DNA of 64,000 nucleotides, from the NCBI RefSeq assembly GCF_014236855.1, contig NZ_CP051261.1, positions 5,022,001-5,086,000 on the forward strand, written 5' to 3'. Positions 5,486 to 51,221 of the stretch are shown here, one piece after another. The position numbers were made by a program, and so were the translations under genes. This DNA comes from Xanthomonas sp. SI (GTDB lineage: Bacteria; Pseudomonadota; Gammaproteobacteria; Xanthomonadales; Xanthomonadaceae). The notes beneath the pieces were generated by a model. That model saw only the letters and a program-made list of their open reading frames with translations, had not been told where the DNA came from and made no database searches. Positions within the stretch are counted from its first letter, which is position 1; every line of letters begins with the position of its first letter.

Positions 5486-5570
5486 GTAGGAGCGGCTTCA
5501 GCCGCGACAGAAGCCTTCCCCAGCGCGACCGTTCCCGGCAAGATCCTGTCGCGGCTGAAGCCGCTCCTAC
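5486..5570. repeat. Inverted REP pair (BIME-like)
   Basis: Two exact copies of a 23-bp REP face each other: forward at 5486-5508, reverse complement at 5548-5570, with a 39-bp spacer. Each has a GTAG head followed by the perfect hairpin GCGGCTTCAGCCGC, and the two arms can also pair with each other. The pair sits between the convergent araC and uspA genes, where it could form a transcript-end structure. It matches the repeats flanking the RAYT gene at 33.8 kb. Confidence 0.95.
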
Positions 5571-24752: not shown

Positions 24753-28082
<3,330 letters not shown>

Positions 28083-33817: not shown

Positions 33818-34354
33818 ATGCCTCCGCTCGCTCATTTTCCAGGAAATGCCGCATTGCGCCGCGGCCGCCATGATGAGGGCGGGCGTACCTATCTGTTGAC
33901 GGTGGTGACCTTCCAACGCGCAACGCTGTTCTCGGACTGGCGTTGCGCACGTGCAGCGGCTGCCTGCCTTTCCGCGCCCGCCAGCTGGCCGCAGGTGCAA
34001 CTGCTGTGCTGGGTATTGATGCCCGACCATTGGCACGGCCTGATCGAACTGGGTCCGCGCGCGACGCTGTCAGAAGCGATGCAACACGCCAAGGGCCGAT
34101 GCGCGCATGCGGTGAATCGCGCACGCGGCCGCGGCGGCAGGGTGTGGTCGCCGGGCTTCCATGATCGCGCACTACGGCGCGAGGATGACATGCTGACCGC
34201 GGCACGCTACATCGTGGCCAATCCATTGCGCGCCGGCCTGGTGCGTCGCTTGGGCGATTATCCGTATTGGGATGCGATCTGGCTGCCGGCGCATGCGGGA
34301 GCAAAAGCGGTCGCGGCTGAAGCCGCTCCTACAGAAGAGCATGATTCCCTGTAG
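33818..34354 (+). CDS. REP-associated tyrosine transposase (RAYT)
   Basis: A 178-residue single-copy transposase of the IS200/Y1 HUH class. TYLLTVVTFQRATLFSDW is the family's first strand. LMPDHWHGLIELG carries the HxH metal ligands (H71, H73). RVWSPGFHDRALRRED is followed by AARYIVANPLRAGLV with the catalytic-type Tyr131. All core motifs look intact. RAYTs are domesticated relatives of IS200/IS605 transposases that cut at REP hairpins (family knowledge). The last codons run into a REP, so the C-terminus is repeat-encoded ([16 protein letters not shown]), and a second inverted REP begins inside the stop region. It is a fixed gene, not flanked by terminal inverted repeats of its own. No clear ribosome binding site is visible at this ATG. 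Confidence 0.9.
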   Translation: MPPLAHFPGNAALRRGRHDEGGRTYLLTVVTFQRATLFSDWRCARAAAACLSAPASWPQVQLLCWVLMPDHWHGLIELGPRATLSEAMQHAKGRCAHAVNRARGRGGRVWSPGFHDRALRREDDMLTAARYIVANPLRAGLVRRLGDYPYWDAIWLPAHAGAKAVAAEAAPTEEHDSL

Positions 34355-34373
34355 GAGCGGCTTCAGCCGCGAC
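34310..34373. repeat. Inverted REP pair flanking the RAYT 3' end
   Basis: Reverse REP at 34310-34332 lies inside the RAYT coding region and forward REP at 34351-34373 covers its stop codon; the spacer is 18 bp. Both match the elements elsewhere in the window exactly. This pair is divergent (tails outwards), unlike those at 5.5, 28.0 and 39.3 kb. It is probably the parental REP of this RAYT. Confidence 0.95.
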
Positions 34374-34413
34374 AAGATCCCCACCGGAACTGGGAAGCAC
34401 TACCGCGCGAACG

Positions 34414-34755
34414 TCAATGCGAAGCGCGATCCCGGTGCCAGCCGCGGTGCTTGATGTCCAGGTACAGGCTGTAGAACGCGGTGAAGGCCGGGAACAGGTT
34501 CTGCAGCACGCCGACCGAGTCCTGCTTGGCCGAGAACAGGAAGTAGCTCAGCGTCATCAGGCTGCCGACCACGCTCATGTACCAGAACATGCGCGGGATC
34601 ACCGGCTTGCCGGCGCGCTTGGAGGCGACGAACTGCACCAGCCAGCGGCCGCCGAACATCAGCGCGCCGACGTAGCCGATCAGCTTCCAGCCGGTGACGT
34701 GCAGCCCGGTCCAGTACAGCGCCTGGATCGGTTCGTTGAGGAAATGCGACTCCAT
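34414..34755 (-). CDS. Lipid A biosynthesis N-terminal domain protein (LAB_N)
   Basis: A 113-residue membrane protein with three hydrophobic helices. The LAB_N signature is visible: WKLIGYVGALMFGGRWLVQF, SKRAGKPVIPRMFWYMSVVG, SLMTLSYFLFSAKQDSVGVL and QNLFPAFTAFYSLYLDIKHR. The domain occurs alone or fused to lipid-A-disaccharide synthase or glycosyltransferases. It starts one base after the glycosyltransferase stop, so they are one operon. A role in modifying a lipid-linked sugar is likely. Confidence 0.92.
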   Translation of the reverse strand: MESHFLNEPIQALYWTGLHVTGWKLIGYVGALMFGGRWLVQFVASKRAGKPVIPRMFWYMSVVGSLMTLSYFLFSAKQDSVGVLQNLFPAFTAFYSLYLDIKHRGWHRDRASH

Positions 34756-39291: not shown

Positions 39292-39363
39292 GTGGGAGCG
39301 GCTTCAGCCGCGACAGGCACTCTCTATCCCTGTAGAACCTGTCGCGGCTGAAGCCGCTCCTAC
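39292..39363. repeat. Inverted REP pair between rsmG and the PPTase gene
   Basis: Forward REP at 39292-39314 (one mismatch, GTGG head instead of GTAG) and reverse REP at 39341-39363 (exact). The spacer is 26 bp. It lies just past the 3' end of the PPTase gene, upstream of rsmG. Confidence 0.93.
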
Positions 39364-43353: not shown

Positions 43354-43420
43354 GGGCGCACTATACGATGCCCACGTATGGCTCGATGTGGGTGGTGCAG
43401 GACAGAGTGTGGCGTTGGCC

Positions 43421-43937
43421 GGCCATGGTGGTGGCGATGCCAGAGCGTGATTGGCAAGTGCTTGAGGGTTGCCGCGTCGGGACTGAAGTCGCTCCCGCAA
43501 GGGGTCGATCGGCGCGCTTTGCGTGTCGGAGGGGCTTCAGCCCCCGACGGTGTCCGGCGTGCGGAGGCGTGCCGCTGGCAATTCTGCATGGGCTTCGATC
43601 CCTGCCCCAGCGAACATGGCTTGCGCCGACGCGGGGTGTCGCGGCTGAAGCCGCTCCTACAGCGTGCGCTTCAGCCATACAGGGCGTAGCGTCGGCAGGC
43701 CATGGTGGCGGCGATGCCGAAGCGTGATTGGCAGGTGCTTGAGGGTTTGCCGCGTCGCGACTGAAGTCGCTCCCACGAGGGGTCGATCGGCGCGCTGTGC
43801 GTGTCGGAGGGGCGTCACCCCAACGGGGTCCGGCATCCGGATGCGTGTCGCTGGCATCCTGCGAGAGCTTGGTTCCCTGCCCCAGCAAGCATGATGTGCG
43901 CCGAGCCTGTGGGTCGCGGCTGAAGCCGCCCCTACAG
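43421..43937. repeat. Tandem pair of 240-bp composite repeats carrying degenerate REPs
   Basis: The 630-bp gap 43354-43984 is filled by two diverged direct copies: 43421-43662 and 43698-43937, at a period of 277 bp. Each starts GGCCATGGTGG and contains CGATGCC, GCGTGATTGGCA-GTGCTTGAGGG and GGGGTCGATCGGCGCGCT in the same order. Each copy ends with a reverse REP (43638-43660 exact; 43913-43935 one mismatch) and also has an altered element (GACTGAAGTCGCTCC). Copy 1 has a third, GAGGGGCTTCAGCCCCC, at about 43529-43544. No gene is visible. Confidence 0.9.
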
Positions 43938-43984
43938 AAAGCGCTGAAGCGCTTCGGCGGCGGCGCGCGGTGCAACACCAGCGG

Positions 43985-51147: not shown

Positions 51148-51221
51148 GTCGCGGCTGAAGCCGCTCCTACAGTGGGATGACGTTGAGCCTCGGCCCTTGT
51201 AGGAGCGGCTTCAGCCGCGAC
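51148..51221. repeat. Inverted REP pair in the acs-regulator/mntP gap
   Basis: Reverse REP at 51148-51170 and forward REP at 51199-51221, both exact, 28-bp spacer, divergent orientation. They lie in the 634-bp gap 50970-51603. Nothing gene-like is visible in 50970-51147 or 51222-51420; the last part of the gap is a riboswitch leader. Confidence 0.95.

Follow-up and report, generated by a model that had tools for sequence, protein, structure and literature searches.

A Xanthomonas RAYT gene that ends within its adjoining REP doublet, and the excess of REP-borne stop codons among RAYT genes of its order

REP-associated tyrosine transposases (RAYTs) were defined by Nunvar et al. in 2010, who found REP elements frequently in the close vicinity of the rayt stop codon or directly behind it, and four cases in which the 3' end of the rayt gene is part of a BIME (PMC2817692). 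The partnership of a RAYT, or TnpAREP, with its REPs is already known, under the names REPtron and REPIN-RAYT, and the described systems include the Xanthomonas cases Xaxo and Xcam (PMC2817692), while REP classes and subclasses have been treated elsewhere (PMC3686654, PMC6006769). Di Nocera et al. (2013) reported that GTAG REPs often supply TAG stop codons and overlap the 3' ends of tyrosine transposase genes (PMC3733652); the running text of that paper contains neither a count of RAYTs against other genes nor a register in which a TGA of the REP loop is the stop. Searches of openly available article text turned up neither the loop register nor such a count, and the statistical excess of REP stops described below may be new. 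A locus in which the element lies at the very end of the coding frame bears on how RAYT nucleases stay harmless while their REPs persist.

The stretch analysed (the window) comprises 64,000 nucleotides of Xanthomonas sp. SI (contig NZ_CP051261.1, positions 5,022,001 to 5,086,000), whose genome is designated G000, and its features are collected in Table 1. The RAYT protein matches the REP-associated tyrosine transposase family NF047646 (E 8e-39, 132.8 bits, cut-off 80), and Y1_Tnp of Pfam (PF01797) above cut-off. Both the HUH motif and the single catalytic tyrosine of the Y1 family are present, and the intact RAYT with HWH and Tyr131 given in a preliminary description of this DNA was confirmed. 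In addition, NPLRAG at residues 135-140 corresponds to the NP(L/V)(R/K)xG motif adjoining the tyrosine, a RAYT trait (PMC2817692), and a PDB sequence search returned a single entry, 4er8, 'TnpArep', with E 1.1e-6. A genome search found one close RAYT match, as is expected of one copy per REP type and genome. Between G000 and genome G134, dN/dS over the core (residues 1-158) was 0.135, which together with the open frame makes a pseudogene unlikely. By these sequence features the gene is a RAYT. It appears to be domesticated and probably processes the adjoining REP family as single-stranded DNA, by analogy with the E. coli and S. maltophilia enzymes, for which cleavage of single-stranded REPs is reported (PMC8266576).

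Table 1. Features of the RAYT locus and REP elements in the window (window coordinates)
Feature	Position	Strand	Remarks
RAYT coding sequence with stop codon, 178 aa	33818..34354	+	ATG start, TAG stop; protein family matches
HWH (HUH) motif, residues 71-73	34028..34036	+	H71, W72 and H73 invariant in 38 aligned sequences
Tyr131, presumed catalytic	34208..34210	+	nearly invariant in 38 aligned sequences
REP doublet, 25-bp hairpin as RNA	34310..34373	+	folding
REP copy 1	34310..34332	-	exact match; wholly coding, translated VAAEAAPT
Inter-REP spacer, 18 nt, coding	34333..34350		same length, different sequence in G134
REP copy 2, stop TAG 34352-34354 within GTAG head	34351..34373	+	exact match
Convergent 113-aa neighbour, locus anchor	34414..34755	-	present in 20/20 genus genomes
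REP inverted pair	5486..5570	5486-5508 +, 5548-5570 -	pattern match
REP inverted pair	28002..28082	28002-28024 +, 28060-28082 -	pattern match
REP inverted pair	39292..39363	39292-39314 + (GTGG head), 39341-39363 -	pattern match
REP inverted pair	51148..51221	51148-51170 -, 51199-51221 +	pattern match
Four-REP composite, single orientation, two sequence types	43476..43935	-	pattern match

A second Y1 transposase-like protein of the same genome, L032 (234 aa, genome positions 1473903-1474604), is 28% identical in a partial match, reaches 62.5 bits with NF047646, under the cut-off of 80, and is patchy in the genus. It was rejected as the true REP mobiliser: near-full-length matches were found only in G000, G249, G153 and G202 among 20 genus genomes, and other genomes that do not have it still carry hundreds of REPs.

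The REP is the 23-nt GTAGGAGCGGCTTCAGCCGCGAC, a GTAG head followed by a palindrome. Pattern matching recovered all the inverted pairs (5.5, 28.0, 34.3, 39.3 and 51.2 kb) and the composite at 43.4-43.9 kb that had been described before, the composite copies having 0, 1, 3 and 5 mismatches. In the earlier statement that the gene ends inside one REP with its stop in the next, the first half is a little loose: the frame crosses the first REP completely and terminates in the second one's head. A 14-mer core of the element, with up to 2 mismatches allowed, had 38 matches in the window (each palindrome tallied on both strands), compared with an average of 4.95 in shuffled sequence, and 0/100 shuffles reached 38. 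The genome-wide count that the preliminary description had proposed gave 277 + 310 = 587 REPs with at most 2 mismatches in 5,246,417 bp (single contig), compared with 1 + 1 = 2 for the reversed pattern, and the shuffles and this control rule out a chance origin. When the region 34290-34395 was folded as RNA, its energy was -66.6 kcal/mol (z -9.45), with equally stable shuffles in 0/200.

The element has the properties of a GTAG-type REP, namely a GT(A/G)G head, a palindrome and a high copy number. In the window and a further 800 kb (864 kb altogether, genes called by a home-made codon-usage caller), 152 REPs of up to 4 mismatches were found, with 10 cases of one lying wholly within a called gene, as expected of a mostly extragenic element. 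The base before the head was T in 106/107 REPs of this sequence and the dinucleotide CT in 74/107, CT being about 5% of dinucleotides and the one cleaved in E. coli and S. maltophilia (PMC8266576); after the stem, G, A and C were found in 106, 107 and 105 of 107 REPs. Neighbouring REPs with a gap below 120 nt were arranged + then - in 25 pairs, - then + in 11, the class of the RAYT's own doublet, and the same way in 9.

Two observations concern other REP arrangements. The region 43400-43950 is an imperfect repeat of about 280 bp with GAC-type REPs at 43476 and 43754 and GGC-type REPs at 43638 and 43913, all on the minus strand, forming a hybrid BIME-like array; Tandem Repeats Finder called no array there. 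A sister REP type, GTRGGAGCGACTTCAGTCGC, coexists in the genus. The window's genome has 70 exact copies of it, G252 has 239, G111 has 214, several other genomes have fewer than 30, and G170 and G226 have 0; it adjoins the RAYT in G247, G111, G253, G248 and G186, with at most 1 further mismatch.

Like the described REPtron and REPIN-RAYT systems, the window combines a HUH-Tyr nuclease having NPLRAG, a single close copy of its gene and a GTAG REP family of hundreds of copies. Unlike a REPtron, it has REPs on the 3' side only, and its coding sequence crosses one REP and ends in another. Inverted REPs on both gene sides, as the strict REPtron definition has it (PMC2817692), were not found: no REP with at most 5 mismatches occurs between 28082 and 34310, and the nearest upstream REP is 5.7 kb from the RAYT. 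With no REP closer on that side, the locus is classed among the RAYTs, its REP doublet being one-sided. As in cases of Di Nocera et al. (PMC3733652), the stop is the TAG of a GTAG head and a REP lies within the coding region. The locus also resembles the E. coli REPs of Liang et al. (2015, via PMC12306157), which lie within 15 nt of a stop codon, in having a REP hairpin at this position, but here the stop is part of the REP.

The preliminary description had proposed that this enzyme spread the elements. Among 247 genomes of the family, kinship being ignored, at least 20 REPs of this type were found in 55/127 genomes with a strong RAYT match (E <= 1e-20), in 8/54 with a weak match and in 2/66 with none, and E. 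coli genomes with a RAYT have been reported to carry more REPINs (PMC8049555); a general RAYT-REP link is supported. In the genus, 3/20 genomes were without a RAYT ortholog. G170 and G226, whose genomes are small and branch deeply, have 1 and 2 REPs, but G153 has 477, and abundance of REPs in relatives without an ortholog, which had been named beforehand as evidence against the proposal, was thus seen in one of the three. With the RAYT itself, a family of hundreds of copies and the general link on one side and G153 on the other, it is no more than plausible from these comparisons that this RAYT spread the window's REPs.

G153 offers a natural case for following the fate of REPs without the enzyme. 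A 297-aa open reading frame lies between the two neighbours, at the place that the RAYT takes in related genomes, and nothing there matched a RAYT better than E 0.09. The share of exact REP copies is 0.49 in G153 and 0.65-0.76 in the carriers G251, G085, G006, G058 and G238. REP decay after RAYT loss is only suggested by this difference, because G250, a RAYT carrier from the same part of the tree, has a lower share (0.23). An effect of the RAYT allele on REP number was rejected (8 genomes with a window-like RAYT against 9 with a 63-67% RAYT, Mann-Whitney p 0.32); the exact-copy share was higher with the window-like RAYT in the same 8 and 9 genomes (p 0.04, kinship ignored).

Comparison of RAYT ends among close relatives bears on how the unusual C-terminus arose. 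The RAYTs of G249 and G252 end in LPAQR and LPAHR, at a TGA 23 and 21 nt ahead of the REP pair, respectively. In G000 and G134 that TGA is absent, and the frame continues through REP 1 to the TAG in REP 2. Relative to G249 and G252, then, the window's tail is read as a derived read-through by loss of an older stop; this polarity comes from four genomes, and a neighbour-gene tree of weak support does not pair G000 with G134 as sisters. Among the matches listed, P0001 from Xanthomonas translucens pv. undulosa is the closest protein (94% identical over 92%; 44 members). It ends in ESKSGRG, and window DNA 34300-34320 read in another frame gives SKSGRG-stop; judging from the protein, its stop would be a TGA in the loop of the first REP. 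Therefore, three endings seem to occur at one REP pair, one ahead of both copies, one in the REP 1 loop and one in the REP 2 head.

The tail itself, residues 159-178, had a dN/dS of 1.05 between G000 and G134, calculated on few sites, and the spacer-encoded residues differ completely although the spacer is 18 nt in both; no protein-level constraint on the tail was seen in this pair. The earlier suggestion that a coding REP lets transposase and substrate co-evolve finds no support in a tail of this kind, while the other suggestion, that the REP at the RAYT end regulates translation, is plausible by analogy with E. coli REPs (cited in PMC12306157). It could also be supposed that the extra residues tune DNA binding or cleavage, since E. 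coli TnpAREP without its last 13 residues is more active and its G160 and E161 contact GTAG bases (PMC8266576). That the tail is functional in this sense is very improbable, given a dN/dS near 1 in the tail against 0.135 in the core, the wholly different spacer residues of G134, the relatives that have no tail and the fact that the E. coli enzyme belongs to another group.

The preferred reading, held with moderate confidence, is one of neutral drift in a domesticated RAYT gene that lost its older stop codon, with REPs as fixed backstops. A stop codon just ahead of the doublet would have been lost in an ancestor and, because of this loss, the frame would have been extended through REP 1 to a stop in the fixed GTAG head of REP 2, creating the REP-encoded C-terminus. 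REPs beside RAYT genes may serve as backstops in two frames, with the head TAG in one and, where the copy is inverted, its loop TGA in another. RAYT C-termini appear to be loose beyond the conserved YPYWDAxWL stretch; the two properties together would explain why RAYT genes repeatedly end in REPs. The tail would most likely be functionless and the arrangement neutral, and hampered termination at the hairpin may be a side effect.

The frequency of such endings was then determined in 190 RAYT loci from one order (members of Lysobacteraceae and Rhodanobacteraceae as far as titles give a family), all of them best-scoring and made up of the best 80 of 151, 29 loci, 80 further places and L031. After identical 140-nt ends were dropped, 157 loci were left, and a common REP definition was applied (GTRGG[AGT]G head and a stem of at least 5), gene calls again being those of the home-made codon-usage caller. 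The stop lay inside a REP in 33 of these best-scoring RAYTs, a REP began 1-149 nt past the stop in 86, and neither was found in 38, so that in 119/157 a REP overlaps the stop or starts no more than 149 nt behind it. The 33 inside stops were in the head TAG (21), in the loop TGA of an inverted REP (11) or in another register (1). Six RAYTs contained a whole REP within their final 90 nt; two of them, the window gene and its G134 relative, also stop inside a second REP. The stricter REP shape removed L074 from 34 earlier inside loci. L053, L056, L060 and L128 have a terminal RG, but no intact REP was found at them and they were left out of the inside class; visual inspection suggests decayed loop-register REPs in L056, L060 and L128.

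As a control, 2,021 genes were called with the home-made codon-usage caller in 2.46 Mb from eight genomes. A REP lay at or within 149 nt past the stop in 204 non-RAYT genes, only 5 of which stop inside it (4 head, 1 other, 0 loop); in the window's own genome the count was 0/76. The difference between 33/119 RAYTs and 5/204 ordinary genes is significant (Fisher p 2e-11, odds ratio 15), as it is for the loop register (11/119 against 0/204, p 1e-5) and the head register (p 7e-7). This caller recovered 1/8 RAYTs in the control regions, and genes of odd codon use are therefore under-sampled; with a looser threshold, at which 4/8 RAYTs were found, the control was 7/207 (p 2e-10, odds ratio 11). Under these caveats of gene calling, RAYTs stop inside REPs more often than ordinary REP-adjacent genes do, and the 11- to 15-fold odds excess makes the presumed substrate REP that closes the RAYT's own mRNA a simple place to test how the nuclease is kept harmless.

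Could the enrichment be produced by an incomplete caller, related rows and the choice of closest relatives, RAYTs behaving like other lightly constrained short genes? The recovery of 1/8 RAYTs and the published role of GTAG REPs as a frequent source of TAG stops for open reading frames (PMC3733652) argue for this, and so do chance open frames: frames of at least 120 codons that end in REPs are common by chance in G000 (15/106 in the head register, the RAYT included, and 14/127 in the loop register), so that a caller-free count is unusable as a control. On the other hand, the looser-threshold control retains the excess, and the loop-register signature, a C-terminal RG or RD, was found in 26/120 listed database homologs against 11/654 called genes of G000. 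An artefact of this sort is unlikely. Among the predicted RAYTs, P0081 (283 aa) has GQAAEAASYD twice in an N-terminal extension, resembling translated REPs; its start is perhaps called too far upstream.

The same excess sits uneasily with pure drift, under which REP stops would be expected just as much in ordinary genes whose REPs lie equally close, and pass-through 2:1 over stopping, whereas 33 stops inside REPs and 6 read-throughs in the final 90 nt were found, two of the six being genes that also stop inside a second REP. A selected brake could account for it: a hairpin at the stop codon would stall ribosomes and limit a potentially harmful nuclease, and translation of the 5' arm would keep the long doublet hairpin from folding and thereby tie the fate of the mRNA to translation. 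The odds ratio (15, or 11 with the looser caller), the 11/119 against 0/204 in the loop register and the 25-bp hairpin that spans the final codons and the stop are in line with this, as is the reduced translation caused by E. coli REPs within 15 nt of the stop (Liang et al. 2015, cited in PMC12306157). Set against it are the 86/157 RAYTs with a REP only downstream and the 38/157 with none near, the frequent switches of register among relatives and a control that under-samples RAYT-like codon use (1/8 RAYTs called). A brake is therefore conceivable but doubtful, and that RAYT genes of this order have been selected to terminate inside their own substrate element, by head TAG or loop TGA, seems rather unlikely. 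If true, it would be a repeatedly evolved brake, in which the REP is both the DNA substrate and the translational regulator of its transposase.

On the tree, whose rows are related, at least 16 changes (gains or losses) were required for the head register, a state that includes the single case at register -12, and at least 10 for the loop register; these numbers fell to 12 and 8 with forks below 80 collapsed, and to 6 and 3 with only forks of at least 95. This scatter of head and loop classes would also be expected if the REP were the right end of an ancestral compact mobile unit, endings before the REP being derived, and the loop register corresponds to the inverted REP orientation described for RAYT flanks (PMC2817692). 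Such a relic is highly unlikely, since G249 and G252 in the window's own clade stop before the REPs, registers and orientations vary by lineage, and read-through forms exist in L043, L051, L196 and L199. Loss of an upstream stop and drift into the REP backstops remains the preferred explanation for the endings.

The 113-aa neighbour, presumably a 'lipid-A-disaccharide synthase N-terminal-like' protein (a name taken from a sub-cut-off match), adjoins the RAYT in 16/17 genus genomes with an ortholog (E < 1e-59), the two being apart in G214. The RAYT faces this neighbour in G000, G134, G252 and G249 and runs in the same direction in the other 12. A flip by a single REP-REP recombination was considered, as orientations differ between clades, but the expected REP order does not fit. 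The window RAYT is nearer to those of G006, G085, G238 and G251 (70-75%) than to those of G247, G253, G248, G111, G202 and G186 (65-67%); the neighbour-gene tree instead places the latter six nearer the window's genome. Inversion and allele replacement at one site are possible. In G252 (L263, L283), the REP doublet, the RAYT 3' end and neighbour residues 72-113 are duplicated beside the RAYT.
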